This document shows, in pieces, positions 31,252 through 64,000 of a DNA stretch of 64,000 bases. The stretch is taken from contig NZ_LZZS01000004.1 in assembly GCF_014170335.1 (NCBI RefSeq), forward strand, positions 434,001 to 498,000. The letters run 5' to 3'. The stretch's first letter is position 1. Each line of letters opens with the position of its first letter. Position numbers and translations under genes: made by a program. The notes below the pieces were generated by a model, which saw only the letters and a list, made by a program, of their open reading frames with translations, searched no databases and was not told the DNA's origin. Source of the DNA: Achromobacter sp. UMC46 (GTDB lineage: Bacteria > Pseudomonadota > Gammaproteobacteria > Burkholderiales > Burkholderiaceae_B).

Positions 31252-31387
31252 CAATAGATTTTAAACTGATACATTCCGCCCCCAATAAGCCGCCAACGGT
31301 ATTCATCAAAAAAGGGGTCGTCGAGTGTTTTCGGTATATGAATGTGGGCAATTTACTGAATCAGCCAAACGCTCGATAAACGGGGCG

Positions 31388-47047: not shown

Positions 47048-47276
47048 GCGCGCTCCTATCAGCAGTGCCGGCGGATCGCGGCCGGCGGGATCCGTGAAGT
47101 ATAGGGAGGGCGGGCGCCGCGCAGGTGACCGTTGCGTGTCGGGCGCCGGGCCGCAGCGGCAAAGGTGTCACGAATGCGTCATTCGGCGCCTCTAGCATGG
47201 CGGCTTTTGTTAGGGCGGGCGCCCAAGCGCCTGGTGTTGCGGCCATGTCAGGCAATTCCCCCTTGCGGTCACGTTC

Positions 47277-47954
47277 ATGAGCGGCGCCTTCACCGGCTGC
47301 GGCACGGCGCTGCGCGCCTGTCTGGCCTTGGGCCTGCTCACGCTGGCGGCGGCGGGCCAAGCGGAACCGCCTCCCAAGCCCGTCGCTTTCGCGATCACTG
47401 CGCAGCCTTTGGCTCAGGCGCTGGTCGAATACAGCCTGGCCAGCGGGCTGACCGTGCTGGTGGACAGCACGTTGACCGTCGGCAGGCAGGCCCCGGCGGT
47501 GATCGGCAACTACACGCCGGGCGATGCCTTGCGCAAGTTGCTGGCCGGGTCGCCGCTGGCGATCCGGTACGCCAGCGCGCAGTCGTTCACGCTGGTCTCG
47601 ACAGAGCAAGAGGCCGCCGCCGCGCGGCGACCGGACAAGCGGTTGCGCGACACGCCCTATGCCGCCGTCGTGCAGGGCGCGCTGAAGCGCGCCTTGTGCA
47701 AGGCGGCCGGTACGCAGCCGGGCAGTTATCGGGCTTTGGTGCAATTGTGGTTCGACAAGGCCTGGCGGGTCAGCCGCGTCGGTTGGGTCGCGACGACCGG
47801 TTCGCCGGGGTTGGACGGCAGGCTGGAAGCCGCGTTGCGCGGCGTGGTGATCGGTCCTTTGCCGGCGGGTATGCCGCAACCGCTGACGGTCCTGCTGGAA
47901 CCGCGCAGCGCGGCCGAGTGCGTGGCAGAATCCGGAGCCGGCCGTGCGGGATAG
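47277..47954 (+). CDS. STN-domain signalling protein with TonB-like C-terminal domain (VreA-like)
   Basis: 225 residues with a signal peptide ending AAAGQAE. Residues 36-108 are an STN domain (AFAITAQPLAQALVEYSLASGLTVLVDSTLT, GDALRKLLAGSPLAIRY), the signalling module of TonB-dependent transducers. There is no receptor barrel. Residues 125-210 (YAAVVQGALKRAL, YRALVQLWFDKAWRVSRVGWVATTGSPGLDGRLEAAL) look like a TonB C-terminal domain. It is thus a free periplasmic signal carrier like VreA of the PUMA3 system. It overlaps the sigma gene by 11 bp, so its job is probably to relay an envelope signal to the FecR protein. Confidence 0.8.
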   Translation: MSGAFTGCGTALRACLALGLLTLAAAGQAEPPPKPVAFAITAQPLAQALVEYSLASGLTVLVDSTLTVGRQAPAVIGNYTPGDALRKLLAGSPLAIRYASAQSFTLVSTEQEAAAARRPDKRLRDTPYAAVVQGALKRALCKAAGTQPGSYRALVQLWFDKAWRVSRVGWVATTGSPGLDGRLEAALRGVVIGPLPAGMPQPLTVLLEPRSAAECVAESGAGRAG

Positions 47955-48513
47955 CAAACCGGAAAACTCGCTGCGGTCCTTGTTCCTGGAGCGCTACAAC
48001 GACTTCCGCAATCAGCTCAAACGGCGCCTCGGGTCGGAAGACCTGGCGCATGACGCGATGCAGGAAGCCTTTTTGAAGGTCAATGACTTGCCCGCCAGTT
48101 CGTCGATCCAGCAGCCTGCGGCCTATCTGTTCCGCGTGGCGTTGAACATCGCAGAAGACCAGCGGCGCAGAGACTCCCGCTTGCTGACGGGAATAGAGAT
48201 AAGCGAGCTGATCCACATCACGGACGAGGCCGCTGACCCCGCGCGCATCGCGCAGGGCCGCAACCAGATCGACGCCTTCCAGCGTGCGCTGCGCAAATTG
48301 CCTGAGCGCACGCAGCAGATGCTGCTGGCCGCGCGCGTGCACGAGTTGCCCCACGCGGAAATCGCGCGGCGCTACGGCGTGTCGGAGCGCATTGTCTCTA
48401 AAGAACTCAAACGCGCGCTGGAACACTGCGCGCGGGAACTGCACGTGGCGGGCATGGGGGCAGGGGCGTTGTCCGGCCGTGCGGCGGGCGGGGACGAAGA
48501 ACCATGGCACTGA
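47944..48513 (+). CDS. ECF sigma factor, FecI-like
   Basis: 189 residues from a GTG start that overlaps the preceding gene. Region 2 (LFLERYNDFRNQLKRRLGSEDLAHDAMQEAFLKVND, then PAAYLFRVALNIAEDQRRRDSR) and region 4 (LRKLPERTQQMLLAARVHELPHAEIARRYGVSERIVSKELKRALEHC) are both complete. This is the iron-starvation FecI group by sequence. No TonB-dependent receptor is near; the next structural genes are the TpsA/TpsB pair. It should direct transcription of that exoprotein operon once released by the FecR protein (inference). Confidence 0.9.
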   Translation: MRDSKPENSLRSLFLERYNDFRNQLKRRLGSEDLAHDAMQEAFLKVNDLPASSSIQQPAAYLFRVALNIAEDQRRRDSRLLTGIEISELIHITDEAADPARIAQGRNQIDAFQRALRKLPERTQQMLLAARVHELPHAEIARRYGVSERIVSKELKRALEHCARELHVAGMGAGALSGRAAGGDEEPWH

Positions 48514-49472
48514 CGATGAGCCTGCCCGGAAATAACAAGAACCATGATGCGGCTGCGCGCGAGGCGCGGGCCTGGCTGCTGACCCTGACCTCTGGCCGCG
48601 CCACCGAGGCCGATGCCCGGGCGTTCCGGGAATGGTTGCAGGCCGACCCGCGGCGCCAGGCGGCATTCACCGCGCAGAAGCAGCTGTGGCGCGACGTGGG
48701 CCCGGCGGTGCAGGAAGTGGTGGCCGAGGGCGCGCGCAACCAGGCGCGCAAGTCGCTGGTGAGCGGCCGGCGGGCATTCCTGGGCGGCGCGTTGGCGGCG
48801 TCGGCCGCCTATCTGGCGTTCAAGCCGCCGTTGGGGCTGTGGCCCGGCCTGGACACGCTGGGTGCGGACTACCGCACGGCGGCGGGCGAGCAGCGGCGGG
48901 TGGTGTTCGGCGATGCGCTGGATGTCCAGATGAATACGCTGACGCGCATCAATGTCAGCAGCGGCGGCGACGGCGCGGTGATCGAACTGGCCGATGGCGA
49001 GGCCGAGATCCGCAGCGGGGCGGCCCAGGCCGTCGTCGTCGCGGGCAAAGGGCGGATCACGGCGAAGGAGGCGGTGTTCAACGTGCGCTACATCGGCGGC
49101 GAGGCACGGCTGTGCTGCCTGTCGGGCGTCGTGCGGCTGGCGCATGCGCAAGGCGTATTCGATGTCGTGGCCAACCGCGAACTGCGCTATGACGACCAGC
49201 GGGTGATGCCGCCGATCCAGGTCGACCCCGCTATCGTGACCGCGTGGCGGCAAGGATGGCTGGTGTTCGACCAGCAACCGCTGGCGCAAGTGGTGGACGA
49301 GTTGAACCGCTATCGGCGCGGCCGCCTGGTGCTGATGAACGACCAACTGGGCAAGCGGATGGTGCAAGCGCGCTTTTCGCTGGCGCAGGTGGCCGACGCG
49401 GAACGCCTGATCCGGGACGCCTACGGGGCCCACGTGACCCGTCTTCCGGCGGGTGTCGTCCTGTTGTCATAG
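48504..49472 (+). CDS. FecR-family anti-sigma factor with twin-arginine-like membrane segment
   Basis: 322 residues; the start overlaps the sigma gene by 10 bp. The N-terminal cytoplasmic part (REARAWLLTLTSGRATEADARAFREWLQADPRRQAAF) is the DUF4880/FecR N-domain that holds the sigma factor. One membrane segment follows at about 88-108, beginning SGRRAFLGGALAASAAYLAF. Its adjacent arginines resemble a Tat signal. The periplasmic FecR domain (YRTAAGEQRRVVFGDALDVQMNTLTRINV) and a C-terminal STN-like domain (QQPLAQVVDELNRYRRGRLVL) follow. It should sense the STN protein and control the sigma factor. Confidence 0.9.
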   Translation: MALTMSLPGNNKNHDAAAREARAWLLTLTSGRATEADARAFREWLQADPRRQAAFTAQKQLWRDVGPAVQEVVAEGARNQARKSLVSGRRAFLGGALAASAAYLAFKPPLGLWPGLDTLGADYRTAAGEQRRVVFGDALDVQMNTLTRINVSSGGDGAVIELADGEAEIRSGAAQAVVVAGKGRITAKEAVFNVRYIGGEARLCCLSGVVRLAHAQGVFDVVANRELRYDDQRVMPPIQVDPAIVTAWRQGWLVFDQQPLAQVVDELNRYRRGRLVLMNDQLGKRMVQARFSLAQVADAERLIRDAYGAHVTRLPAGVVLLS

Positions 49473-49519
49473 GCCGGTTTCGCCCTGGCGTTCTGATGAA
49501 TTATTTGTGACAGGGTTCT

Positions 49520-49542
49520 GGTCGGCATTTTTCCATCCGTCT
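49520..49542 (+). promoter_or_regulatory. Candidate ECF promoter upstream of tpsA
   Basis: GGTC, 14 bases, CGTCT in the 120-bp gap between the FecR gene and tpsA. A similar pair (GGTC, 15 bases, CGTCT) lies before tpsB at 62328-62351. CGTC-type -10 elements are common for ECF sigma factors. The match is short, so this is tentative. Confidence 0.3.
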
Positions 49543-49592
49543 GTCTTGTTCTAGGTGGCGAACACGCGCGATTGGAACAAGGGATGGCGATC

Positions 49593-52500
49593 ATGCAGGC
49601 ACGGATGTCGGAAATGGGCGGCAAGAGGAACACGGCGCGCGCGCCGGGGCGCGGGCGCCCGAACTGGCGTCCGACGCCGCTGTCGCAGGCGGTGACGGCG
49701 CTGTTGATCGCGGGCAGCGCCAGCGGCGCGGCGCAGGCGCAGACACGCGCGTTCAGCCCCGGCTGGTTCTCCGACAAGAATGCCGTGCAGTCCACGGCGC
49801 AACGCACGGGCCGCATGCCGGACGGCAGCGTCGCGGGCATCGGCAGCAGCGTGCGCCAGCAGCAGCAATCTCGCCAGCAATTGCAGCGTTCGCTGGACAA
49901 CCTGAACCGCACGGCCGCCGCGGTGGCGGCGCAGCAGGCCGCCCAGGCGGCGGCGCGCGCGGCGGCGGCCGCCAACGGCAGCGATGTGCCCGACGGCCTG
50001 GCTGAAGGCGGGCTGTGGGCGGCCGAGGGAGGCCTGGCGAAATGGGAAGGCGCGAAAGCCGCCAAACCCAGCGTGGAGAACGGCCGCCAGGTCGTCACCA
50101 TCGAGCAAACGCAATCGCGGGCGATCCTGAACTGGGACACGTTCAACGTCGGCCGCAACACGACCGTGCAATTCAAGCAGGGCACGGACGACGCGGTGCT
50201 GAACCGCGTGGTCGGCGCATCGGCCAAACCCAGCCAGATCCAGGGTGCGATCAAAGCCGACGGCACGGTGATGGTGGTGAACCAGAACGGCGTGATCTTC
50301 TCCGGCACCAGCCAGGTGAATGCGCGCAATCTGGTGGCGGCAGCGGCCACGGTCACGGATGCGCAATTCCGCGACAAAGGGCTGTACGCCGACAACGGCG
50401 CGCAGCCGACCTTCCAGGACGCGCTGGGCCGCGTCGAGGTGCAGGCGGGCGCGTCCATCCGGACGGCGGTGCCGACGACCTCCACCACGGGCGGCGGCTA
50501 TGTGCTGCTTCTGGGCAAGGAAACGGCGAACGCGGGCACGATCGACACGCCGGGCGGGCAGGCCCTGCTGGCGGCGGGCGACAGCTTCACGATCAAGCGC
50601 GGCCAAGGCACGTCGGGCAATCTCGTGTCCACCACGAAGGGCAATGAAGTGACGCCCGGCGGCACGCCGGGGCGCGTCGCGAACACCGGCTTGATCCAGG
50701 CGGCGACGGGCGACGTGACGCTGACGGGCGGCGATGTCGTGCAAGGCGGGGTGGTGTTGTCCAGCACGTCGGTGGACGCGCGGGGAACGGTGCACCTGAA
50801 AGCGGCGGGCGACGCCGGCAAGATCACCTTGGCGGAAAACAGCACGACGGCGATCTTGCTGGACCGCAGCGGCGCGCTGGCGTTGGACAGCCAGCGGGAC
50901 GGCCTGCGAGTGCCGGTGACGACGCAGACGGATACGGCCTTGGTGGCGGCCGGTGCCGACCGGCGCGAGCTGTCTCGGGTGGAGATCGGCAGCTCCGGCA
51001 CGGTGGACTTCGCGTCAGGCTCGATCACGCTGGCCACGGGCGGGCAGATCGCCGTGCACGCGTCGCAGCGCAGCCTGGTGCGCGACGGGGCGATCCTGGA
51101 TGTGGCGGGCGCCGTGGGCGTGCCCGTCGCCATGGAGAACAACAACATCAAGATCAACGTCCAGGGCAATGAGCAGCGCGATGCGCCGATCAACCGGGAC
51201 AGCGGCAAGCTCAACAGCAACGATGTGTGGGTCGACCTGCGCGATCTTGTCTTTGTGCCCGCCGGCACCAACGGCTACGCGACCGACCGCTGGTACACGG
51301 CCGGCGGCCTGCTGGAGGTCAGCGGCTACCTGGGCACGCAGGGGCACGCCGTCAACGAATGGATGGCGCAGGGCGGCAACGTGGAATTCACGGGCGGCGA
51401 CGTCGTGACGCGCACCGGTTCGCAGATCAACGTGTCGGGCGGCACGCTGGACGTGCAGGACGGCATGATCCGGCAGACGTGGCTGCGCGGCGTGGACGGC
51501 AGGCTGTACGACGTGTCGCGTGCGCCGGGGGACCTGGCCTATGCGGGCCTGTACAAAGGGTACGAGGCGCAAAGCGAACGATGGGGCCAGACGCGCTACT
51601 TCTATAACCCGCTGATCGCGCCGCGCGAGCGCTTCGAGACCGGCTATACGGTGGGCCGGGACGCGGGCCGGCTGCTGATCGGCACCAAGAGCGCGGTGCT
51701 GGAAGGCGAGCTGATCGGCACGACGTTCCAGGGCGACCGGCAGAACGCCGCCGCGAAGGCCGGCCTGGATGGCTACCAGCAATCGCAGCGCGCGGTGGCA
51801 CGCGGCGCGCAGCTGGTGGTGGGCACCTATATGCCGTACTACAACAAGACCACGGGCACGCTGCAGTACGTGCTGGGGCGCGGGGACGACACGGTCAATC
51901 AGGTGGTGCTGTCCGACCGGGTGGCGGCAGTCGCCGCCGGCCTGGACCTGGACACGGCGCTGCCCGCCGACCGCACGGGCATCCTGCAGCTGGATACGAC
52001 GCGGCTCAATGGCTTTGGCCTGGGCGCCGTGAAGATCGCTGCGGGCGACATCACGGTGCAATCGGATCTGACGGTGGCCCCGGCGGGCGACATCACGCTG
52101 TTCGCAAACAATCTGGCGGTGGACGCCGCGCTGACGGCCAACGCTGGCAGCATCCGGCTGGGCAATGTGCTGTTCCAGGCCACGCCCGGCGGCATGGCCG
52201 ACACCACGGCGGGCACGGCGAACGCGGGTGGCGGGCTGACCGACGACCGGCTGGCGCTGGGCGCGCGGGCACGCCTGGACACGTCGGGCCTGTGGGCCAA
52301 CCTGGCGCAGGCGCCAGGGCAGACCGGCGACATGCCGTATCTGAACGGCGGCAGCGTGTCGCTGCGCAGCTCGCTGGATATTGATCTGCAAGCCGGCAGT
52401 GTGATTGACGTGAGCTCGGGCGCCGCGCTGCGCGGCAAGGGCAACGTCACCGGCGGCAAGGGCGGCAACGTGACCGTGGAAGCGGTGGCGGCCGGCACCG

Positions 52501-55500
52501 CCACCGGCGGTCGGCTGGTGCTGGATGCGGAACTGCGGGGCTATGGCGTCGAGGGCGGCGGCACGCTGGCCGTGACGGCGGGCAAGGTCGTGCTGGGCGC
52601 CAAACCATCTGACGCCGGCGACGACGTGCTGGCGCTGGCGGCGCCGTTGTTTCAGCAGGGGTTCTCGCGTTACGAGATCACCGGCAGCCGCGGCGCCTCG
52701 GTGGCCGAGGACACGCGCATCGACGTGTCGATGCCGGTGTACCGTCCGGTGAACGGCGCGGCCAGGATGGCGACGGGCGCGCCAGCCGGCGCGGCATTGG
52801 AAATCTGGCTGCCGCCGGTCTACCAGCATGACCCCGTGGCGGGCTCGGTGACGCGCCGTCGCGGCGCCAGTCTGTCGCTGCAAAGCGGCCGCAGCCTGTC
52901 GCTGCCGGGAGCGGATGCCGATGCGGCGTTGCTTGTCGACCGCGGCGCGCAGATCAATGTGGACCCGGGGCAGGCGATCCAATTGCGCGGCGCGGGCCAG
53001 ATCACGGTGCTGGGCGCGTTGACGGCGGCCGGCGGCAAGATCGATATCCGCCAACTGGGCATGGGCGATATCGATGTGGCGGAGTCCATCGAGACCGCCG
53101 CGGGCCAAGTACACAACCGGTCGATCTGGATCGGCGAGCAGGCGGTGCTGAACGTGGCCGGCCGCGCGGAAACCGGCGTGGACGCGCAGGGCCGCCGCTA
53201 TGGCGTGGCGGACGCAGGCGGCGTCATCGTGATCGGCGGCGAGATCAATCATGACCGCGCCACGGCGACCTCTTCCGACGCCTACGTCATCATCCGGCCG
53301 GGCGCGGTGCTGGATGCGTCCGGTTCGAGCGCGACCGTGGACGTCAACGGGGTGGGCCCCCTGCAGCTGGACCGCAACGGCGGCCGCATCGCGCTCAGTT
53401 CCTACAACGGCCTGTTCCTGGACGGCACGTTCATCGCGCGGGCCGGTGGCGCAAACGCCGCAGGCGGCGCCCTGGATATCGCGCTGGAAACGCCGCTGTA
53501 CCTCGGCGCGGGCGAGAACCCGTCCAGCATGGAGGTGCAGGTGCCGCGCGAGCTGGTACTGGCAGCCGGCGCGGGCAACGCCCTGGCGTCGGATCTGAAG
53601 CCGGGCGAGACCGCCGACGCGCTGCGCTACGGGCAGGCCCGACTGGACGTCGCGCGCCTGTTGGCGGGCGGGGGCTTTGATCAGTTGGGGCTGCTGTCCA
53701 ATGGTTTGATGTCGTTTGACGGCGCGATCGATATCGCGCTCGGCCAAAGCCTGCATCTGTACGCCGGCGCGTTTTCGCTGGCGCCGGACGCCGACGCGGC
53801 AACGCGCGTGAACCTGGCGGCGTCTCAGGTGCGCCTGTCCGGGCCGGGCAAGTACACCGCTACCAACGGCGTGATCCGGCCGCGCGTGCTGTTCGGCGAT
53901 GCGCCGTCAATGGGGACGGGCGTCTTCACGGTGCACGCCACCGACCTGCTGGAAGTGGGCAATAGCCTGTCGTTTGGCACCCAGGGCAGCATCAACCGCA
54001 GCGTGGGCGGCCTTTTGGCGGTGGCGCGGCCGGGTTTTGACCGGGTGACGCTGGAAAGCGGTGGCGACCTGCGCTTCTTGCTGAATAACGACAGCGAGCC
54101 GCGCACCCGACTGTGGACGCGCGGCGATCTGGACCTGATCGCCGCGCAGTTGTACCCGGTGACGGGCGCTGAGGCCGAGGTGCTGGCCGGCTATACCCGC
54201 AACCCGGTTTCCGGCATCAATGTGTTCGATCCGACCCGCATGCTGCGAGTGGGCCGGTCCGGCGGGGCCACTGCGCCGTTGCCGGCCGTGCCGTATTCGG
54301 CGTTTGGCTCGCTGCGCCTGGCGGCGACCAACGTGGAGCAGGGCGGCGTGGTGCGCGCGCCGCTGGGCGCCATCGTCTTGGGCGATGTGAGTTCGACGTC
54401 AGGCACGCAGCGCCTGACGTTGCTGCCGGGTAGCGTGACCTCGGTCAGCGGCGCCGGGCTATGGATGCCCTACGGCGGCACGACCGATGGCGTGTCGTAC
54501 AAGTTCAAGGGCGCGGAAGTCGCGCTGGTGGGCGCGGGCGGCGCCACCGGATCGGGCAGCGGCGCGTCGTTGCGCACGGGCATCACACTGGGATTCCGCG
54601 ATGTGGATGCGCTGCCGGGATCGGTGCTGGACCTGTCCGGCGGCGGTGAACTGACCGGCGCGGGCTTCGTGTCCGGACGTGGTGGCTCGACCGACGCGCG
54701 CTATTCCCCGCTGGTGCGCAACGATCCCAAGGGCGGTTTCACCTTGCCCGGGCTGGCGGACAACCCCGTCTATGCCATCGTGCCGGGCGTGCAGCCGGGC
54801 TATGCGCCGGCCGGCGGTGAAGCCGGCGCCTCGGCCCCGGGTCTGGGGCGGCAAATCACCATCGGGGCGGGTGTGCCGGGCTTGCCGGCCGGCACCTATA
54901 CGTTGATGCCGTCGACCTATGCCTTGTTGCCTGGCGCGTTCCGCGTCGAAATCAATACGGGGGCGACGGCGGGCGCCGCCATGGTGCCGGCGCAGATGCG
55001 CAACCTGTCGTGGGCGGCCAGCGGCACGCTGTCCACCGCCGGCACGCGGGTGGCCGATAGCTTGGCGACCCCCGTCATCCTGACGCCGGCCAACGTGCTG
55101 CGCACCTATTCGCAATACAACGAGACCAGCTACGCCAACTTTGTGCGTGCCGATGCGGCCACGCGCGGCGTGCCGCGCGCGATGCTGCCGGCCGACGGCC
55201 GGACCTTGCGCCTGGCGGTCCATGCCGGGTCGCAGGACGGGCAGGCGCTGCGCTTTGACGGTCTGGCCGATTTCAAAGCCGCCGAGGGCGGCTTTGGGGG
55301 GGCGGCGGCGCTCACCGGCGGCAGTACGAGCGTCGAGATCCTGGCGGCGGGCCAGGCGCCCACTGCGGGCTTTGCGGGCGCCTCGGTGCAGGCCGATGCG
55401 CTGGTCGCACTGGGCGCCAGCCGGTTGGTGATCGGCGCGCTGCCGGTGGTGATGTACGGCCAGGGCGGCCGCTTCTACACGTTCCAGGGCGGTGCCAACG

Positions 55501-58500
55501 AAGTGGTGATGCGCGCCGGCGCGCAACTGGCTGCGCCCGAGGTGTTGATTTCGTCGCGGACGATCGAGCTTGAAGCGGGCGCCGGCATTTCGACGCTGGG
55601 TCGCGGCGCGCCGTCGGTGGATTCGACCAACGGGTATGCGTTTGAACCGGGCAGCACGGGGTTGCTGGCCGTGTCCAACGGCCGCCTGGATGTCCTGGCG
55701 CCTGATGCGCTGGGCGCGGGCATGATCCGCATCGGCACCTGCGCGGCGCTGCCCTGCGAGGGCGTGACGCGGCTGTATTCCGAGGGCACGATCGCCGCGG
55801 CCACCAACGGCACCTTCGACCTGGGCGAGCAGGTGTCGTATGGCACCCGCAACCTGACGCTGGCGGTCGGGGCGATCAACGCGGGCACCGCCGATGCGCT
55901 GGCGCAGGCGGCCGCGCGCGGCGTGCTGCCCAACGGGCTGACGCTGAACCAGACCATCCTGGGGCGTCTGCTGCGCGGCGACACCAGCACCGGCGCCCCG
56001 GCGTTGGAGCGGCTGACGCTGACGGCGCGCGAGTCCATGAATTTCTACGGCACCGTCGCGCTGGATACACGCGATCCGCTTACCGGCAAGTACAGTCTGG
56101 CCACGCTGTCTTTGGGTACGCCGGCCATCTACGGCTACGGCGCTGCCGGCGACGAGGCCAGCATCCGCACCCAGAACCTGATCTGGAGCGGCGCCACGCA
56201 GGCGCCGGGGGCGGTGGCGGCAGGCGGGGCCGGCACGGGCCACGGTGTGCTGCGCATCGAAGCCGAACGCATCGAGTTCGGCTACGGCCAGGGGGCGCAG
56301 CCCAGCGGGCTGGACGACAACGGCCGCCTGGCGCTGGGCTTTGCCAGCGTCAACCTGAACGCCAGCGAACGCATCACGGCCAATCACCGCGGCAGCCTGG
56401 CGGTGTATGAATCGCAAGGCGCGTATGCCAGCGGCAGCGGCTACACCTACAGCGGCGGAAATCTCAACCTGAACACGCCGCTGTTGACCGGGTTGGCGGG
56501 ATCGGTGAACAAGATCACGGCCGGCGGCGACGTGCGCGTGGCGGCCGCGCCGGGCGCGCAGGCGGCAACCGTGCAGGAATTGGGCGCGGAACTGAGCCTG
56601 GCGGGCGCCAATGTGCGCGTGGACGGCGCCATCGTGCTGCCCAGCGGCAAGCTGACGCTGCAAGGCCGCGACAGCGTGGTGCTGGGCGCCGCGTCGCAAC
56701 TGGACCTGGCCGGCCGCGCCATCGCCTTCAACGACGTGTTGCGCTATAGCTGGGGTGGCGACCTGATCCTGGAAAGCAGCCAGGGCGGCATCCGGCAAGA
56801 GGCCGGCTCGGTGATCGATCTGTCGGCCAAGGAGAACAACGCCGGCAGCCTGCGGGCCGTGGCGCTGGCGGCAGGCGCGGGTCAGGTGGAGCTGCTGGGC
56901 CGCATCGTGGGCGCCAGTTCGGGTCACTACGACGCCGGCGGCACCGCAGTGCCGTACCGCGCGGGCAGCGTCGATATCCGCGCGCAGCGGCTGGGGGCGG
57001 CGGGCGCCTTGAATGCCGATTTCGACGCGCTGAATCAACGCCTGAACGACGGCGGCGTGTTCGGGGCACGTAGTTTCCAGATCAAGCAAGGCAGCCTGAC
57101 GGTCGGCGATACGCTGCGCGCCAACGATGTCAACCTGTCGATCGACGGCGGCAGCCTGATGGTGGCGGGCCGGGTGGACGCCAGCGGCGAGCGGGTAGGC
57201 CGCATCCGCCTGGCGGCGCGGGACGGCTTGACGCTGGCGGGGGCGTCGGTGCTGGATGCGCACAGCACGGTGATGCGCGTGGACAGCTACGGCAAGATCA
57301 TCGACGCGCCGAACCGCGCGGTGGTGGAACTGAATTCCGGCCAAGGCGTGCTGACCCTGGCCAGCGGCGCGCGCATCGACCTGCGTCACGGCACCTTGGC
57401 CACGGGGCAGCACGACGGCGTGCAACGCGGCACGCTGGAACTGCTGGCGCCACGCATCGACGCGGCCGGCAATACGGGAATCAACGGCGGCGGGGCACCG
57501 GGTTCCGCCGCCCGCTATGGCGATATCGCCATCGAGGCGCGTGGCCCGCTCGCGATCGACGGCGCCAAGTCGATCACGCTGACTGCCATGCAGCGCTATG
57601 ACGACGCCGATGTGGGCAACTCCGGCGACCGGACCAACGGCCGCGAGTACCAGATCATCAATCAGGCCTACCTGGAAGCCAAGCACGGCGACAGCACCGC
57701 CTTCATGGGCGGCGCGGTGGTCAATGGCAACTTGATCAACGGCAAGCTGGCTGGCTTGAACAACGCCACGTATCGTGACGTGTTCCATCTGCGCCCGGGC
57801 GTGGAAATCGTCAGCAAGACCGCCGACGGTGATCTGGTGGTGCAGGGCGACCTGGACCTGTCGCGCTACCGCTATGCGGGCGTAAACCCGAGCTCGCCGC
57901 TGACGGGGGTGTACGGCTCGGGCGAGGCCGGCGCGCTGATCCTGCGCGCCAAGGGCAACCTGGATGTCTACGGCAGCATCAACGACGGCTTCGCGCCGCC
58001 GGCCGCCACGCCGGACGACGAGCACGGCTGGGTGCTGACGCCCGGCGTGCAGCCGTTTGGCGGCGACGTGGTGTTGCCGCGCGGCGGCGTCACGCTTGCC
58101 GACGGCACCGAGTTCCCCGGCGGCAAGACGCTGAACTATCCCTTGCCCCTGAAGGCCGTGAAACTGGCGGCGGGCACCCGCTTGCCGGTGGAGGCCGCGC
58201 TCGACCAGGAACTGTCTCTCGCCAGCGGCACGGTGCTTTCCGGCGACGTGCGGGATGCGTCTGGCCAACTGCTGTACGGCGCCGGCACGGTACTGAACCA
58301 GGCGGTGGACCTGCCCGCCGGCACGCGCCTGGGGGCGGGCACGCTGCTGGCCGGCGGCACGTCGCTGCAGTCGTTCACCTGGCCCGCGAACGTGGCCCTG
58401 CCCAATCTGTACACCACGCAGGGCTATGAGCCGAACGTGCTGCTGATGGAGGGCACCATTACGCTCAAGCAAGGCGCGTTCATTCCGTCGCAGACCAAGC

Positions 58501-61500
58501 TGGTATTCCCGGCGGGGACCGACTATGTGGACCTGCGGCCCGGCACGCCGGCAGATCAGCGGCGCAATTGGGCCGTGGCCCAGATGCTGCCCGCAGGCAG
58601 CCAGTCGTGGTCGGTGCAACTGGTGGCCGGCGCCGACCTGGACGCGGCCGATCCGCGCCGGGTGCTGACCGGGCCGGCCGCCGGCAAGCTGACGCTGGCG
58701 GACACGCATTACAACGCCAGCCTGGTCCAGGGCGGCGGGTGGGTCTGGGGGCCGGACGCCGAACAGTCAGGCTTCGAGCCCGGCACGCCGGTGCCGGACG
58801 ACATGGCATGGCTTTGCGACGTGATCGAAGGATTCTGCGAGCGCGGTGACGCCAACGCGGTTTCGGTGACGCCGCATACGCAGAATTTCAGCGTGCTGCG
58901 CACCGGCACCGGTGACCTGGACCTGAACGCGGGCGGCGATATCAGCCTGATGTCGGCCTATGGCGTGTACACCGCCGGCACGCAGTCGGCGAACATCGCG
59001 TCCGCCTACCAATTGCCGCGCGGACGATTCGGCGCCACGGTGCTGGGCGACGACCATGCGGCGACCTATGAGCCGTTCGTGACGGCGGGCAGCGGTTACC
59101 AGGCCTGGTATCCCGAAGCCGGCGGCAACCTCAGCCTGTACGCCGGCGGCGCATTGCGCGGCGACGCGTGGGGCCAGACTGCGCAAAGCACGTTCGATGC
59201 CCGCAGGGTGGACGCCAGCGTGGGCGTCGGCAATTGGCTGTGGCGCCAGGGGACGGGCAGCGCCAACGGCGGCGATACGCCAACCGCATGGTGGATCAAC
59301 TTCGGCAGCTACACCCAGGCACCGTCGGACTTCAAGGACACCACGCCGCTGCTGGTGGGCTTTACCGGCTTTGGCGCGCTGGGCGGCGGCAATGTCAGCG
59401 TGCGCACCGATGGTGATGCCGGCAACATCGAGGCGCGCGGTTCGCGCAGCACCCCGCGCAGCCAGGGTCTGGTCGTGGCGGTGGGCAGCTCCGGCCGCAT
59501 CGCGGCCGACGGCGGCATGACGTTGACCGGCGGCGGAGATATCGACCTGCGCATCGGCGGGGCGCTCAACCCCACGCAGAATGCCCGCGGCGGCGTGTCG
59601 TCGACCTCCGGGCCCACGCCGTATTACGGCGATCCCGCCATCGACATGCAAGGCGCGCTGATCAACCTGCGCGGCAATGTGCAGTTCGCGGGCGGCGCGA
59701 TCGGCGGGCTGGACCTGCGCTACAGCAGCCAGCCGGCCCTGCGCGACGCCAAGGACAGCCGCGGCTTCGATCCCTATGAATCGTCGCTGGCCAGCGCCAC
59801 CGGCGGGTTGGCGCTGATTCCGGGCGATGCGGTGATCCGGCTGGACACGCGTGGCGACCTGGTGGTGGGCGGCGCCAGCGATCCGGGCCGTGTCGCGTTG
59901 CAGAACAGCACGCCGTTCCGGTTGCGCGACGGCACGCGGATCGATGGCGGCGGCTACAGCTGGTTTTCGATGTGGACGGCCAACACCGCCATTGAACTGT
60001 CCAGCGCGGGCGGCAACCTGACGCCCAGCCGGCAGACGTCGCACAGCGCCCAAAGCCTGGCGCTGCAGACCGGCCGCAACACGTCCGCGTCGGATGCGCG
60101 CTATTTGTACCCGTCGATCCTGCGCGCCACCGCGTACGACGGCAGCATCTACGCGGGCGTCTCGGCCGGCTACCTGAACGCCGAGGACGGCGGCCTGCCG
60201 TATTCGCTGACGCTGGCGCCCGGCGCGCGCGGCCAGCTTGAACTGCTGGCGGGCAATTCGATTTACGCGGGCGGCTACGCCATCAACCGCTCGGGGGCCG
60301 ATCCGGCCAGCGTGGCCAATGTGCTGGCCCCGGCGTTCGCGGGCTATACCTCGCAGGCCACCAGCGCGGTCACCTTGAGCAACCAGGGCGCCAACGGCAT
60401 CGTCGGCGCTCGCAACGCGCACTTTCCGTTGTTCTACTTCGAGGCGCCCACGGCCAGTGCGGCCGGGTCCGACCAGGTCACGCGCCTGTATGCCCGCGAC
60501 GGCGACATCGTGGGGCTGCGCAGCGGCGAAACGCTGGCGATCATCGCGGGCCCCAACCTGGGGCAGGCCTGGTACGAGGCGTCGGGTCCCGTGTGGATGA
60601 TGGCCGGACGCGACATCGTGGCGTCGGGCACCGATACCGGCGCGCAATTGAACGTGCCTACAACCAACGGCTACTACTTTGCGGCGGGCGTGGCCTCGGC
60701 CACCTCTTCCGGCAATCTGTTCCTGCACCGCGATGCGCTGGACGTGTCGCGGGTGTCGGCGGGCCGCGACATTCTCTACAGTTCGTTCCAGGTGGCCGGC
60801 CCCGGCACGCTGGAAGTCACTGCCGGCCGCCATGTGCTGATGGGCGACCGGGCGTCGATCAACAGCCTGGGCGCGGTGATGCCGGGCGACCACCGCCCCG
60901 GCGCATCGATCGCCGTGCTGGCGGGCGTGGGCGCCAAGGGGCCCGATTACGCGGGCTTTCTGGCGCGGTATCTGGACCCGGCCAAGGCGGCGGACCCGAG
61001 CCGCCCGCTGGTGGATCAGGGCCTGGCGTTCAAGACGTACGAGGCTGAACTGTTGCTGTGGTTGACGCAGCGGTACGGCTTTTCAGGCAGCACGGACGAC
61101 GCGCGCGCTTATTTTTCGGCGTTGCCGGCGGAGCAGCAGCGCGTCTTCGCGCGACAGGTCTACTTCGCGGAGCTGCGTTCCGGCGGGCGGGAATACAACG
61201 ACAAGGCCAACCCGCGCAACGGCAGCTACTTGCGGGGCCGCCAGGCCATCGCCGCGCTGTTCCCCGACACGGCGCCGGGGGCGTATCAAGGCGACCTCAC
61301 GCTATATGGCGCATCGGGCATCCGCAGCAGCTTCGGCGGCGATATCCAGCTGATGACGCCGGGCGGGCAGCAGGTGTTCGGCGTGGAGGGCGTCGCGCCG
61401 CCGGCTTCCGCGGGCATCATCACGCAGGGCGAAGGCAGCATCCAGCTGTACGCGCTGGGCAGCATCCTGCTGGGCCAAAGCCGGGTGATGACGACGTTTG

Positions 61501-62147
61501 GCGGCGGCATCACGGCGTGGTCGGCCCAAGGCGACATCAACGCGGGCCGCGGTTCCAAGACAACGGTGCTATACACGCCGCCCAAGCGCGTCTATGACGC
61601 GTTCGGCAACGTGACCCTGTCGCCGAACGCGCCCAGCACCGGCGCGGGCATCGCGACGCTGGCGCCGTTGCCGGAGGTGCCGGCCGGCGACGTCGACCTG
61701 TATGCACCGCTGGGCACCATCGATGCGGGCGAAGCCGGCATCCGCGTGTCGGGCAACGTGAACATCGCAGCCCTGCAGGTGGTGAACGCGGCCAACATCC
61801 AGGCGCAGGGCGACAGCGCGGGCGTGCCGGTGACGGCGTCCGTCAACACCGGCGCGCTGTCGTCGGCCAGCGCGGCGGCGACTTCGGCGGTCAATGCGGC
61901 GCAGGATTCCGCCCAGCGCGCCCAGAGCCAGGCGCGTCAGAACCAGCCCTCGGTGATCAACGTGCAGATCCTGGGATATGGCGACGAGCCCGTGGCGGGC
62001 GCCGCGCCCGTGCCGCAGGGCAGCCCGTCGGCGGCCGCGCCGGCGTATGACCGCGCCAGCGCCGTTCAGGTGCTGGGCGCGGGGCCGCTGGACACCAGCG
62101 AAGCCGCGTCGCTGAGCGCCGACGAACGACGCAAGCTGACGATGTGA
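49593..62147 (+). CDS. Giant TpsA exoprotein (filamentous-haemagglutinin-like, DUF3739 family)
   Basis: 4,184 residues from the ATG at 49593, chosen because AAGGG lies 9 bases before it. Earlier in-frame starts (49572 TTG, 49584 ATG) exist. An extended signal peptide ends GAAQAQT. A coiled, Gln/Ala-rich segment follows, then the TPS secretion domain (about 120-290), including NWDTFNVGRNTTVQF and VNQNGVIFSGTSQVNARNL. The bulk is Gly/Ala/Asp-rich beta-helix with haemagglutinin-type repeats. Two short Cys pairs occur (TCAALPCEG near 2050, WLCDVIEGFCE near 3075). A DUF3739-like region (FGGDIQLMTPGGQ, GEGSIQLYALGSILLGQSRVMTTFGG) lies at about 3915-4075, and the end is ADERRKLTM. It should be exported by the adjoining TpsB. 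Adhesin or toxin-carrier role is inferred; no toxin domain is seen. Confidence 0.9.
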   Translation: MQARMSEMGGKRNTARAPGRGRPNWRPTPLSQAVTALLIAGSASGAAQAQTRAFSPGWFSDKNAVQSTAQRTGRMPDGSVAGIGSSVRQQQQSRQQLQRSLDNLNRTAAAVAAQQAAQAAARAAAAANGSDVPDGLAEGGLWAAEGGLAKWEGAKAAKPSVENGRQVVTIEQTQSRAILNWDTFNVGRNTTVQFKQGTDDAVLNRVVGASAKPSQIQGAIKADGTVMVVNQNGVIFSGTSQVNARNLVAAAATVTDAQFRDKGLYADNGAQPTFQDALGRVEVQAGASIRTAVPTTSTTGGGYVLLLGKETANAGTIDTPGGQALLAAGDSFTIKRGQGTSGNLVSTTKGNEVTPGGTPGRVANTGLIQAATGDVTLTGGDVVQGGVVLSSTSVDARGTVHLKAAGDAGKITLAENSTTAILLDRSGALALDSQRDGLRVPVTTQTDTALVAAGADRRELSRVEIGSSGTVDFASGSITLATGGQIAVHASQRSLVRDGAILDVAGAVGVPVAMENNNIKINVQGNEQRDAPINRDSGKLNSNDVWVDLRDLVFVPAGTNGYATDRWYTAGGLLEVSGYLGTQGHAVNEWMAQGGNVEFTGGDVVTRTGSQINVSGGTLDVQDGMIRQTWLRGVDGRLYDVSRAPGDLAYAGLYKGYEAQSERWGQTRYFYNPLIAPRERFETGYTVGRDAGRLLIGTKSAVLEGELIGTTFQGDRQNAAAKAGLDGYQQSQRAVARGAQLVVGTYMPYYNKTTGTLQYVLGRGDDTVNQVVLSDRVAAVAAGLDLDTALPADRTGILQLDTTRLNGFGLGAVKIAAGDITVQSDLTVAPAGDITLFANNLAVDAALTANAGSIRLGNVLFQATPGGMADTTAGTANAGGGLTDDRLALGARARLDTSGLWANLAQAPGQTGDMPYLNGGSVSLRSSLDIDLQAGSVIDVSSGAALRGKGNVTGGKGGNVTVEAVAAGTATGGRLVLDAELRGYGVEGGGTLAVTAGKVVLGAKPSDAGDDVLALAAPLFQQGFSRYEITGSRGASVAEDTRIDVSMPVYRPVNGAARMATGAPAGAALEIWLPPVYQHDPVAGSVTRRRGASLSLQSGRSLSLPGADADAALLVDRGAQINVDPGQAIQLRGAGQITVLGALTAAGGKIDIRQLGMGDIDVAESIETAAGQVHNRSIWIGEQAVLNVAGRAETGVDAQGRRYGVADAGGVIVIGGEINHDRATATSSDAYVIIRPGAVLDASGSSATVDVNGVGPLQLDRNGGRIALSSYNGLFLDGTFIARAGGANAAGGALDIALETPLYLGAGENPSSMEVQVPRELVLAAGAGNALASDLKPGETADALRYGQARLDVARLLAGGGFDQLGLLSNGLMSFDGAIDIALGQSLHLYAGAFSLAPDADAATRVNLAASQVRLSGPGKYTATNGVIRPRVLFGDAPSMGTGVFTVHATDLLEVGNSLSFGTQGSINRSVGGLLAVARPGFDRVTLESGGDLRFLLNNDSEPRTRLWTRGDLDLIAAQLYPVTGAEAEVLAGYTRNPVSGINVFDPTRMLRVGRSGGATAPLPAVPYSAFGSLRLAATNVEQGGVVRAPLGAIVLGDVSSTSGTQRLTLLPGSVTSVSGAGLWMPYGGTTDGVSYKFKGAEVALVGAGGATGSGSGASLRTGITLGFRDVDALPGSVLDLSGGGELTGAGFVSGRGGSTDARYSPLVRNDPKGGFTLPGLADNPVYAIVPGVQPGYAPAGGEAGASAPGLGRQITIGAGVPGLPAGTYTLMPSTYALLPGAFRVEINTGATAGAAMVPAQMRNLSWAASGTLSTAGTRVADSLATPVILTPANVLRTYSQYNETSYANFVRADAATRGVPRAMLPADGRTLRLAVHAGSQDGQALRFDGLADFKAAEGGFGGAAALTGGSTSVEILAAGQAPTAGFAGASVQADALVALGASRLVIGALPVVMYGQGGRFYTFQGGANEVVMRAGAQLAAPEVLISSRTIELEAGAGISTLGRGAPSVDSTNGYAFEPGSTGLLAVSNGRLDVLAPDALGAGMIRIGTCAALPCEGVTRLYSEGTIAAATNGTFDLGEQVSYGTRNLTLAVGAINAGTADALAQAAARGVLPNGLTLNQTILGRLLRGDTSTGAPALERLTLTARESMNFYGTVALDTRDPLTGKYSLATLSLGTPAIYGYGAAGDEASIRTQNLIWSGATQAPGAVAAGGAGTGHGVLRIEAERIEFGYGQGAQPSGLDDNGRLALGFASVNLNASERITANHRGSLAVYESQGAYASGSGYTYSGGNLNLNTPLLTGLAGSVNKITAGGDVRVAAAPGAQAATVQELGAELSLAGANVRVDGAIVLPSGKLTLQGRDSVVLGAASQLDLAGRAIAFNDVLRYSWGGDLILESSQGGIRQEAGSVIDLSAKENNAGSLRAVALAAGAGQVELLGRIVGASSGHYDAGGTAVPYRAGSVDIRAQRLGAAGALNADFDALNQRLNDGGVFGARSFQIKQGSLTVGDTLRANDVNLSIDGGSLMVAGRVDASGERVGRIRLAARDGLTLAGASVLDAHSTVMRVDSYGKIIDAPNRAVVELNSGQGVLTLASGARIDLRHGTLATGQHDGVQRGTLELLAPRIDAAGNTGINGGGAPGSAARYGDIAIEARGPLAIDGAKSITLTAMQRYDDADVGNSGDRTNGREYQIINQAYLEAKHGDSTAFMGGAVVNGNLINGKLAGLNNATYRDVFHLRPGVEIVSKTADGDLVVQGDLDLSRYRYAGVNPSSPLTGVYGSGEAGALILRAKGNLDVYGSINDGFAPPAATPDDEHGWVLTPGVQPFGGDVVLPRGGVTLADGTEFPGGKTLNYPLPLKAVKLAAGTRLPVEAALDQELSLASGTVLSGDVRDASGQLLYGAGTVLNQAVDLPAGTRLGAGTLLAGGTSLQSFTWPANVALPNLYTTQGYEPNVLLMEGTITLKQGAFIPSQTKLVFPAGTDYVDLRPGTPADQRRNWAVAQMLPAGSQSWSVQLVAGADLDAADPRRVLTGPAAGKLTLADTHYNASLVQGGGWVWGPDAEQSGFEPGTPVPDDMAWLCDVIEGFCERGDANAVSVTPHTQNFSVLRTGTGDLDLNAGGDISLMSAYGVYTAGTQSANIASAYQLPRGRFGATVLGDDHAATYEPFVTAGSGYQAWYPEAGGNLSLYAGGALRGDAWGQTAQSTFDARRVDASVGVGNWLWRQGTGSANGGDTPTAWWINFGSYTQAPSDFKDTTPLLVGFTGFGALGGGNVSVRTDGDAGNIEARGSRSTPRSQGLVVAVGSSGRIAADGGMTLTGGGDIDLRIGGALNPTQNARGGVSSTSGPTPYYGDPAIDMQGALINLRGNVQFAGGAIGGLDLRYSSQPALRDAKDSRGFDPYESSLASATGGLALIPGDAVIRLDTRGDLVVGGASDPGRVALQNSTPFRLRDGTRIDGGGYSWFSMWTANTAIELSSAGGNLTPSRQTSHSAQSLALQTGRNTSASDARYLYPSILRATAYDGSIYAGVSAGYLNAEDGGLPYSLTLAPGARGQLELLAGNSIYAGGYAINRSGADPASVANVLAPAFAGYTSQATSAVTLSNQGANGIVGARNAHFPLFYFEAPTASAAGSDQVTRLYARDGDIVGLRSGETLAIIAGPNLGQAWYEASGPVWMMAGRDIVASGTDTGAQLNVPTTNGYYFAAGVASATSSGNLFLHRDALDVSRVSAGRDILYSSFQVAGPGTLEVTAGRHVLMGDRASINSLGAVMPGDHRPGASIAVLAGVGAKGPDYAGFLARYLDPAKAADPSRPLVDQGLAFKTYEAELLLWLTQRYGFSGSTDDARAYFSALPAEQQRVFARQVYFAELRSGGREYNDKANPRNGSYLRGRQAIAALFPDTAPGAYQGDLTLYGASGIRSSFGGDIQLMTPGGQQVFGVEGVAPPASAGIITQGEGSIQLYALGSILLGQSRVMTTFGGGITAWSAQGDINAGRGSKTTVLYTPPKRVYDAFGNVTLSPNAPSTGAGIATLAPLPEVPAGDVDLYAPLGTIDAGEAGIRVSGNVNIAALQVVNAANIQAQGDSAGVPVTASVNTGALSSASAAATSAVNAAQDSAQRAQSQARQNQPSVINVQILGYGDEPVAGAAPVPQGSPSAAAPAYDRASAVQVLGAGPLDTSEAASLSADERRKLTM

Positions 62148-62150
62148 ACA

Positions 62151-62177
62151 TGACCGCCGGCAAGCCGCCGGCGGTCA
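62151..62177 (+). terminator. Hairpin after tpsA stop codon
   Basis: TGACCGCCGGC, five bases, GCCGGCGGTCA: perfect 11-bp arms starting three bases after the tpsA stop. No T-run follows; with the next hairpin it forms a double terminator. Confidence 0.6.
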
Positions 62178-62192
62178 TCGGTTTGTCATGAA

Positions 62193-62221
62193 GCGGCCAG
62201 CATCCCCTGGCCGCTTTTTTT
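62193..62221 (+). terminator. Rho-independent terminator between tpsA and tpsB
   Basis: GCGGCCAG, six bases, CTGGCCGC followed by seven T residues: a textbook intrinsic terminator. It implies that tpsB, 257 bp further on, has its own promoter or relies on read-through. Confidence 0.85.
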
Positions 62222-62327
62222 CGCCTTGCACGCTAGCGCCGTCATCTCGCACGGCCAGAATCGCCGCCGGGCAGTCCGCGCCTTGCGGCCGCCGATTCTT
62301 TTTCATGAAGTTTTTCTTACAACGCGC

Positions 62328-62351
62328 GGTCTTCGCCTTCCCAGTACGTCT
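62328..62351 (+). promoter_or_regulatory. Candidate ECF promoter upstream of tpsB
   Basis: GGTC, 15 bases, CGTCT lies downstream of the tpsA terminator and 127 bp before tpsB. It resembles the candidate before tpsA at 49520-49542. Tentative. Confidence 0.25.
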
Positions 62352-62477
62352 AGTAACAAGCAGAAGCTGTGGACGCGAGGTAGCGGGCCAAAACCGTAAC
62401 GGGATTGTCGCGAAGCGCATGGCACGGCAGCGGCCGGCACCAGGCCGGATTTCACACAAGGAACTGAGTGCATCGCT

Positions 62478-64000
62478 ATGCATGATTTCGAAAGTAGGGG
62501 CTGCGCGTTGCGCGCCATATTGCGCCGCGCGCCGCAAGCATTCGTTCTGACCGCCGGCGTCCTGGGCGGCTCCGCGGCCTGGGCGCAGCAGGCGCCGGCT
62601 CCCGAGGCCGCTTCCGAAGCCGCACCCGCCGCCGCAGCCGCATCCGACGGCCGCCGCGTCAACATCAACGAGTACATCGTGCGCGGCAACACCGTGCTGG
62701 AAGCCCGCGACATCGAACGCGCCGTCTACCCCTACCTGGGGCCGGACCGCACGCTGGCCGACATCGAGTCCGCGCGCGAAGCCTTGCAAACCATCTATCA
62801 GGAACGCGGCTACCAGTCGGTCTACGTCGATCTGCCCGAACAACAGGTCGCCGACGGCATCGTGTTCCTGCAAGTGTCCGAGACCAAGGTGGGACGGGTG
62901 CGGGTGGTGGGTGCGCAGCATTACTCGCCGCTTGCGATCCGCGACGAGGTGCCGGCGCTGCAGGAAGGCCAGGTGCCCAACTTCAACCGCGCGCAGGCCG
63001 AACTGACCAGCCTGAACAAGGGCGCCAGCCGCCAGGTCGTGCCGCTGGTGAAGGAAGGGCGCATGCCGGGCACGATGGACGTGGACCTGAAGGTCGAGGA
63101 CAAGAGCCCCTGGCATGCCAGCATGGGCCTGAACAACGACTACAGCGCCGACACCTCGCGCCTGCGCAGCACGGCGTCCCTGGGCTACGACAACCTGTGG
63201 CAACTGGGCCATTCCGTCAGCCTGACCTTCTTCACCGCGCCGCAGGAAACCGACAATGCCAAGGTCTGGTCGGGGTCGTATTCCATGCCGCTGTCCAGCC
63301 GCTGGGGCTTGCAGTTCTCGGGTTACAAGAGCGACAGCAACGTGGCGACCATCGGCGGCACCAATGTGCTGGGCAAGGGTTATTCCTTCGGCTTGTCCGC
63401 CATCTACACGATGGAGCCGCAGGGCGATTGGAGCAATTCGCTGTCCGTCGGCCTGGATTACAAGAAGTTCGACGAGTCCACGCGTTTCGGCGCCAACGAA
63501 GACCAGATCCCGATCAAGTACCTGCCGTTCACGCTGGGCTACAACGGCTATCGCTATTCCGAGTCGTCGCAGAGCAGCGTGGGGCTGTCCATCGTGGGCG
63601 CCAGCGGTTCGTTCTTCAACCAGGGCAGCGACTGGAAGGAATTCGACGACAAACGCTATCAAGCCAGCCCCAGCTTCGCCTTGCTGCGTGGCGACGGCAC
63701 GCATACGCAGAACCTGTTCGGCGATTGGCAGCTGGGCCTGCGCGGCTCGTTCCAGCTGGCCTCGGGCGCCCTGGTGTCCAACGAACAGTTCTCGGCCGGC
63801 GGCGCGACCAGCGTGCGCGGCTACCTGGCCGCCGAACGCACGGGCGACGACGGCGTCCTGGGTTCGGTGGAATGGCGCACGCCGTCGCTGGCCCGCTGGC
63901 TGGGCGCGAATGTCAACGAATGGCGCTTCTACGCATTTGCCGACGCCGCCACCTTGCGCCTGCGCGACCCGCTGCCCGAACAGGATTCCAGCTTCTCGCT
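62478..64000 (+). CDS. TpsB (ShlB/FhaC/HecB-family) outer-membrane transporter, C-terminus beyond right edge
   Basis: The plus frame from the ATG at 62478 stays open to the window end (507 residues). The signal peptide ends SAAWAQQ. An Ala/Pro-rich linker (residues about 35-60), two POTRA domains (RVNINEYIVRGNTVLEARDIERAVYPYLGPD; ALQTIYQERGYQSVYVDLPEQQVADGIVFLQV; KVGRVRVVGAQHYS) and then the 16-strand barrel follow. The barrel contains the secretin-loop motif ATSVRGYLAAER of loop L6. The last strands are missing at the edge. It should export the giant TpsA protein. The clear partner relation and the intervening terminator suggest separate transcription. Confidence 0.92.
   Translation, partial: MHDFESRGCALRAILRRAPQAFVLTAGVLGGSAAWAQQAPAPEAASEAAPAAAAASDGRRVNINEYIVRGNTVLEARDIERAVYPYLGPDRTLADIESAREALQTIYQERGYQSVYVDLPEQQVADGIVFLQVSETKVGRVRVVGAQHYSPLAIRDEVPALQEGQVPNFNRAQAELTSLNKGASRQVVPLVKEGRMPGTMDVDLKVEDKSPWHASMGLNNDYSADTSRLRSTASLGYDNLWQLGHSVSLTFFTAPQETDNAKVWSGSYSMPLSSRWGLQFSGYKSDSNVATIGGTNVLGKGYSFGLSAIYTMEPQGDWSNSLSVGLDYKKFDESTRFGANEDQIPIKYLPFTLGYNGYRYSESSQSSVGLSIVGASGSFFNQGSDWKEFDDKRYQASPSFALLRGDGTHTQNLFGDWQLGLRGSFQLASGALVSNEQFSAGGATSVRGYLAAERTGDDGVLGSVEWRTPSLARWLGANVNEWRFYAFADAATLRLRDPLPEQDSSFS

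Follow-up and report, generated by a model that had tools for sequence, protein, structure and literature searches.

The locus described here raises the question of what a receptor-less cell-surface signalling module does directly in front of the gene for a giant exoprotein, to which system the two belong and what switches them on. It lies in a stretch of 64,000 nucleotides from Achromobacter sp. UMC46 (the window; contig C4:434001-498000 of a 6.68 Mb genome) and consists of genes for a protein with an STN domain, an extracytoplasmic function (ECF) sigma factor and a FecR-type anti-sigma factor, followed by tpsA and tpsB of two-partner secretion (Table 1). On the sequence evidence this is clearly a complete member, in Achromobacter, of the known PUMA3 system (VreA, VreI, VreR), and it provides one new lead on the role of VreA. 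We give a probability of about 80 % to a PUMA3-type module in which PhoB and VreI drive the tpsA and tpsB promoters, VreR restrains and VreA signals. Control of the adjoining giant exoprotein by the vreAIR switch is the most likely arrangement.

Identity of the module

The first-pass annotation, made from the letters alone, had proposed that a cell-surface signalling module is coupled to an exoprotein of two-partner secretion; domains and synteny both agree with this. The overlaps of 10-11 bp given there are 11 bp between the STN and ECF sigma genes and 10 bp between the ECF sigma and FecR genes in the list of open reading frames (ORFs). The distance of 120 bp from the end of the FecR gene to a tpsA of 4,184 residues, with tpsB behind it, is exact to the base when tpsA is read from the ATG at 49593; the longest reading, from a TTG at 49572 (ORF 49572-62147), has 4,191 residues. 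In Pfam searches the STN domain scored 31.6 bits (cut-off 28.4), Sigma70_r2, Sigma70_r4_2, FecR and DUF4880 all exceeded their cut-offs in the vreI- and vreR-like products, and the TPS domain of TpsA and its POTRA/ShlB transporter partner provided the features of two-partner (type Vb) secretion; TpsA is predicted to be exported through TpsB. The domain check that had been suggested was thus successful for STN, Sigma70, FecR, TPS and DUF3739, whereas the TonB-like domain of VreA stayed under the cut-off and was seen by profile-profile comparison. As had been stated, no TonB-dependent receptor was found among the window ORFs of at least 560 aa (nine: tpsA, three antisense to tpsA and five that were scanned). 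The VreA-like protein has no beta-barrel, unlike the TonB-dependent outer-membrane receptor that is the transducer in FecIRA-type signalling.

Table 1 Predicted features of the vreAIR-tpsA-tpsB module (window coordinates)
Feature	Position	Strand	Description	Score
Predicted PhoB/sigma-70 promoter of vreAIR	47166..47198	+	TGTCAC-N5-CGTCAT-N10-TAGCAT	14/15 defined positions
vreA-like gene	47277..47954	+	225 aa; signal peptide (by eye), STN, TonB4/TolA-like C-terminal domain	
vreI-like gene	47944..48513	+	ECF sigma factor, 189 aa, GTG start	Sigma70_r2 29.5, Sigma70_r4_2 49.4 bits
vreR-like gene	48504..49472	+	FecR anti-sigma factor, 322 aa	FecR 41.1, DUF4880 39.5 bits
Predicted VreI/PhoB promoter of tpsA	49496..49544	+	reverse-strand pho box 49496-49513, 24 nt, CGTCTGT 49538-49544	pho box 14/18
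tpsA	49593..62147	+	two-partner exoprotein, 4,184 residues	TPS 84.6, DUF3739 133 bits
Predicted VreI/PhoB promoter of tpsB	62305..62353	+	reverse-strand pho box, 24 nt, CGTCTAG 62347-62353	pho box 12/18
tpsB	62478..64142 (window stops at 64000; L010:1478-3142)	+	554 aa	ShlB 70.1, POTRA_2 63.9 bits

PUMA3 of P. aeruginosa with PdtA/PdtB (PA0674-PA0699) had been named as the nearest analogue. This was the right comparison, but the module is itself a member of the PUMA3 family and not merely similar to it, because its downstream genes agree with those of P. aeruginosa in type and order. On the same strand 3' of tpsB (locus L010) follow exbB, exbD, tonB, a Porin_5 porin gene, a coiled-coil gene and, between this and the PpiC isomerase gene, a YbjN gene. 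The order from tpsB to ppiC is identical in P. aeruginosa, where the VreI regulon comprises pdtB, exbB2, exbD2, tonB4, PA0696 (porin), PA0697, PA0698 (YbjN) and PA0699 (PpiC) (PMC7035377). The comparison was one of gene type and order, not of sequence, and the counterpart of PA0697 was matched by position and coiled-coil character only. The two systems further agree in having a single operon with identically ordered genes for the three regulators (PMC2729926, PMC4971064, PMC7035377), a VreA with an STN and a TolA/TonB-like domain, a giant TpsA, and pho boxes, here as predicted sites, 5' of vreA, of tpsA and of the genes on the tpsB side. In P. aeruginosa the genes for Hxc type II secretion and lapA lie between vreR and tpsA, whereas none of these was found between vreR and tpsA here (the rest of the genome was not searched for Hxc genes). 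The Hxc genes are not defining for PUMA3, because the 2009 paper contains clusters followed directly by tpsA (PMC2729926). Further differences from P. aeruginosa are that no phdA is recognisable in the 330 bp between tpsA and tpsB (the longest plus-strand ORF there has 120 aa, overlaps tpsB and gave no Pfam match), that vreA and vreI overlap by 4 bp in P. aeruginosa (PMC2729926) compared to 11 bp, and that a second vreAIR-tpsA copy, with no tpsB beside it, is present on another contig.

Two features that had been regarded as setting the locus apart from PUMA3 do not do so. The direct contiguity of regulators and cargo was reported in 2009 for R. palustris and Janthinobacterium, in which vreAIR lies immediately 5' of tpsA and is repeated in the genome, and the TonB-like domain of the carrier was described in the same paper as the TolA/TonB-like C-terminus that follows the STN N-terminus of VreA, modelled there on TolA (PMC2729926). 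That study also found PUMA3 homologues in six other genomes to be linked to homologues of TPS proteins, ExbBD and PA0696. In R. palustris and Janthinobacterium tpsA follows three of four clusters and tpsB-exbBD the fourth (PMC2729926), unlike here, where there are two copies and the first is followed by both tpsA and tpsB. The module arrangement is thus already known from related bacteria, and what is added are sequence clues to the role of VreA. One combined literature search for Achromobacter, two-partner secretion and ECF sigma factors found no description, and no paper on DUF3739 was found.

Synteny of vreAIR with tpsA

The synteny sample consisted of the best 80 of 430 loci related to the N-terminus of TpsA; the best 21 listed relatives are all Achromobacter. 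At least 2.7 kb upstream of tpsA was needed for counting, and eight of the 80 loci were shorter (seven non-Pseudomonas, one Pseudomonas). The genes vreA, vreI and vreR were located directly before tpsA in 40 of 41 non-Pseudomonas loci, representing 10 named genera, and in two of 31 Pseudomonas loci, i.e. the full trio is present in 42 of the 80. Since 40 of 41 loci share it, the gene order is not due to chance, and a chance neighbourhood of vreAIR and tpsA was ruled out. Direct contiguity of the two is the rule outside Pseudomonas in the loci sampled. Absence of this synteny from every related genome had been named as grounds for discarding the proposal; the synteny is common.

The single exception, from A. 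insuavis (L129), has type II secretion genes upstream of tpsA in place of vreAIR, as do the two Pseudomonas loci that were scanned (L085, L098). Part or all of the trio was found in four of the seven short non-Pseudomonas loci and none of it in three, one of which (L081, 1.9 kb upstream) has no trio gene though it has space for a vreR. With sequence sets taken at a stricter cut (39 loci), the distance correlations of tpsA with vreA, vreI and vreR were low (0.27-0.33); nearest neighbours agreed with those of tpsA in 26 of 39 cases for vreA, 28 for vreI and 31 for vreR.

Predicted promoters and phosphate

The inducing signal had been described as unknown, and pho-box-like sites before vreA, tpsA and tpsB now give a partial answer. 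The pattern before vreA, which combines two half-sites for PhoB with a -10 box, keeps the spacing fixed and has 15 defined positions, reached at least 12/15 in 36 of 41 upstream regions, compared to 40 of 1950 random windows (2.1 %; drawn from the same loci, so that real sites may be among them) and 5 of 2050 shuffles. This contrast is partly built in, because the pattern was composed after these sequences had been seen. A plain count of 18-position pho boxes, made earlier, gave at least 13 matching positions before vreA in 14 of 41 regions and in 30 of 975 random windows.

In the first 190 nucleotides (nt) behind vreR a pho box of at least 13/18 was present in 20 of 41 loci; the background, 0.095 per kb as derived from 20 of the loci, predicts approximately 0.7. 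Judged by eye, these 20 stretches form about six groups of related sequences. A pho box 24 nt before CGTCT precedes tpsA in the window and in 9 of 40 other stretches, all nine from Achromobacter. In the 80 loci (1.56 Mb, both strands) the pattern of box, 24 nt and CGTCT occurred 11 times, nine of these being the tpsA sites mentioned. It also stands before tpsB in the window; of 18 other loci, 15 have it there, from five genera (ten Achromobacter, two Bordetella and single loci of Pollutimonas, Pandoraea and Janthinobacterium). A longer pattern, allowing up to three mismatches, matched only the tpsA and tpsB sites of the window genome-wide, and it was made from these two. Nothing useful came from one global alignment of the sequences before tpsA.

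Several observations count against a general control by PhoB. Five of the 41 vreA upstream regions scored below 12/15, 21 of the 41 tpsA upstream stretches have no pho box at 13/18 or above, and the tpsB pattern is missing from three of 18 upstream regions, two of them Pseudomonas. The second genomic copy is one of the 21, having no recognisable pho box before its tpsA (10/18), and its vreA promoter scores 14/15. All pho-box scores depend on the consensus that was assumed for the box.

The footprints point to predicted PhoB control of vreA, tpsA and tpsB, so that the input with the best support is, as in P. aeruginosa, a lack of phosphate. They would extend the PhoB-plus-sigma logic of that organism to Achromobacter, Bordetella, Pollutimonas, Pandoraea and Janthinobacterium. 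In P. aeruginosa vreAIR expression needs PhoB, and VreI binds to the pdtA promoter only together with PhoB (PMC4971064); a 2017 review places pdtB-pdtA under the control of phosphate, PhoBR and PUMA3 (PMC5422565).

Probable kinship of VreA with the TonB of the operon

The STN half of VreA gave profile matches to the signalling domains of FemA, FpvA, FecA and others, whereas in the same search the other half matched only HasB, and weakly. Pfam alone was insufficient for this half (TonB_2, 12.1 bits, cut-off 22). When the C-terminal domain of VreA was compared with the operon's own TonB, hhalign gave 98.6 % in one comparison and 96.3 % in another. With a profile of VreA C-termini the module TonBs scored 37-48 bits (37.2 for that of the window operon), the TolA-like protein of the genome (L161) 16.4 bits and five other TonB relatives at most 9.3 bits; the hhalign values that go with the 96.3 % were 78.5 % for L161 and at most 25 % for the other TonB relatives. 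The iterated vreA profile may include TonB proteins, and its scores against TonB were not used as evidence.

The distribution of the domain also links it to the exoprotein. DUF3739 is present in 34 of 300 Burkholderiales genomes. In a survey of the 300 for VreA, with up to ten candidates scored per genome so that misses are possible, the full architecture was found in four, all DUF3739-positive. A further 19 genomes have the C-terminal part alone, in the form of a separate TonB, again all DUF3739-positive and in 18 of the 19 within 5 kb of DUF3739; the remaining 11 DUF3739-positive genomes gave neither. ExbB, ExbD and Porin_5 adjoin each of the nine separate TonBs that were examined closely. 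A search of 31 genomes (29 picked for vreAIR and two Pseudomonas with tpsA) found the module TonB in 30, the miss being the Janthinobacterium of L107.

The reverse comparison, starting from TonB, separates the proteins less well: with the profile of the module TonB, the VreA of the window scores 30.7 bits, another genomic TonB (L162) 29.0 bits and several VreA proteins less than 10 bits. A first tree, without the TolA-like protein, had VreA as one clade (support 100/98). In a tree with L161 and without the long-branched L163, two changes are required for VreA (a single one in 40 % of bootstrap trees), and the TonB class is left unresolved. Since the VreA clade is lost with L161, the kinship rests on profile scores and gene linkage and not on the tree. 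No statement of a VreA-TonB4 kinship was found in the literature searched, which covered papers in part and left subscription journals mostly outside. It bears on a question that the 2020 paper leaves standing, as the function of VreA, if any, is called unknown there and exbB2-exbD2-tonB4 uncharacterised (PMC7035377).

VreA tails contain at least two cysteines in 39 of 39 cases, compared to none of 17 distinct TonB genes. C141 and C215 in the C-terminal domain (window ~47650-47954) are invariant in 34 of 34 VreA alignment rows and absent from the module and DUF3739-linked TonBs; perhaps the pair forms a disulphide bond. The TolA-like protein of the genome also has two cysteines.

Proposed mechanism and alternatives

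The gene set and order, the synteny and the promoter footprints can be read directly from the sequence, the footprints as predicted sites. In the mechanism that we propose for them, phosphate starvation would yield PhoB~P and so transcription of vreAIR from the sigma-70 promoter, and VreR would hold VreI at the inner membrane. Once VreR is cleared, VreI and PhoB would jointly fire the tpsA promoter and that of tpsB-exbB-exbD-tonB-porin-ppiC, and TpsA would then be exported via TpsB. VreA would be a free, receptor-less STN signalling domain with a TonB-like domain, of which the STN half most likely touches the periplasmic part of VreR, while the other half most likely attaches to a protein of the outer membrane with which the operon's own TonB also interacts. 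The action of PhoB~P in turning on vreAIR and in helping VreI at the tpsA and tpsB promoters is supported by the predicted sites and, in P. aeruginosa, by experiment. That VreR restrains VreI would follow from homology and from the 2016 deletion data, in which regulon expression was 3.7- to 5.3-fold higher without VreR (PMC4971064). The 2009 paper had reported VreR to be essential for VreI activity in P. aeruginosa (PMC2729926), and these opposite reports of its role are a difficulty for the mechanism. VreA has a plausible way to act, because the STN domain of FoxA can shield the anti-sigma factor FoxR from proteolysis (PMC11637429). As proposed for VreA, a free STN domain there meets an anti-sigma factor; that of FoxA is proposed to be set free by proteolysis of the receptor, whereas VreA would be free by gene architecture. 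The FoxA paper does not mention VreA.

The part assigned to VreA is conjectural and could be mistaken, because deletion of vreA is silent in P. aeruginosa: pdtA and phdA expression at low phosphate stays at the wild-type level, and virulence in zebrafish is unchanged (PMC4971064, PMC7035377). The same deletion data would fit a VreA that is a vestige or an accessory, with VreI and VreR fed by PhoB as the whole circuit. We regard this as possible but somewhat unlikely, as vreA is kept before vreI in all 42 full-trio loci and its tail cysteines are kept throughout, so that selection seems to act on it, perhaps for another signal. If VreA signals as proposed, it may dock at the same place as the TonB of the operon and relay information on the secretion apparatus. 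A more specific and tentative proposal, rather doubtful at present, is that VreA acts as a decoy TonB whose C-terminal domain comes from the TonB class dedicated to the DUF3739 exoprotein systems. It would compete for, or sample, the place at which that TonB docks on its outer-membrane partner (the Porin_5 porin or TpsB), and its STN half would shield or release VreR. In this way the switch would sense how the secretion apparatus is working and provide each tpsA copy with its own feedback. This would explain why vreAIR lies beside each tpsA, yet there is one TpsB of this type (next relatives at 22-25 % identity) and one such tonB in the genome here; two close TpsB or TonB copies occur in some other genomes.

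The C-terminal domain could instead be TolA-like rather than kin of the operon's TonB, as the 2009 model on TolA implies (PMC2729926); L161 is the next best match, shares the possession of cysteines, and dissolves the single VreA clade when added to the tree. Its 16.4 bits and 78.5 % are nevertheless set against 37.2 bits and 96.3 % for the operon's TonB, and the 19 genomes that have the C-terminal part only all have DUF3739, nearly always close by, which makes this reading quite unlikely. Finally, an ordinary FecI/FecR module of the iron type might stand beside tpsA by chance, with its true receptor elsewhere. The module shares the STN, FecR and ECF sigma logic of FecA-FecR-FecI, its STN domain is closest to the signalling domains of iron receptors, and 12 of the 15 STN matches in the genome are in frames of more than 800 aa, i.e. 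of receptor size. Unlike FecA-FecR-FecI, however, it has no beta-barrel receptor, an exoprotein as cargo and predicted control by phosphate instead of iron. The trio synteny outside Pseudomonas, the pho-box-like sites before vreA, the absence of a receptor from the window ORFs scanned and the gene order shared with the PUMA3 regulon all make the iron-type reading extremely improbable, and an iron-type module with a hidden receptor was rejected.

Genes beyond the window and the second copy

The second vreAIR-tpsA unit, on contig C6 and with no tpsB beside its tpsA, is 42 % (vreR), 39 % (vreI) and 37 % (vreA) identical to the first. Within genomes, the regulators of copy pairs diverge more than the TpsA N-termini in nine of ten pairs compared; in the tenth (L082, L092) vreI has diverged slightly less than tpsA. 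The second tpsA is immediately followed by a further ECF-type sigma gene (L043:17369-18043, contig C6, minus strand; Sigma70_r4_2 45.3 bits). Tandem vreAIR-tpsA units approximately 15 kb apart on one contig were seen in Achromobacter sp. ASV32 (L062/L069) and Achromobacter sp. UMC71 (L060/L070).

Among the genes 3' of tpsB, the ExbB-type proton channel (L010:3182-5104) has an N-terminal DUF2341 and laminin-G/concanavalin-like region of ~370 residues, an unusual fusion that is also present in G285 (51 % identity). No solved relative of the Porin_5 porin was found. A recurrent hydrophobic stretch in its N-terminus was considered as a TonB box; it could equally be an oligomerisation helix, and a TonB box is not claimed. 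Behind ppiC, outside the window, an Xre/MbcA/ParS-type antitoxin and RES-domain pair (L010:10328-11358), likely a toxin-antitoxin unit, lies at the same place as in the related genome G138. Some 13 kb before the module the window encodes an autotransporter of 941 residues (31325-34147) with an Autotransporter beta-domain (228.8 bits) and PATR repeats.

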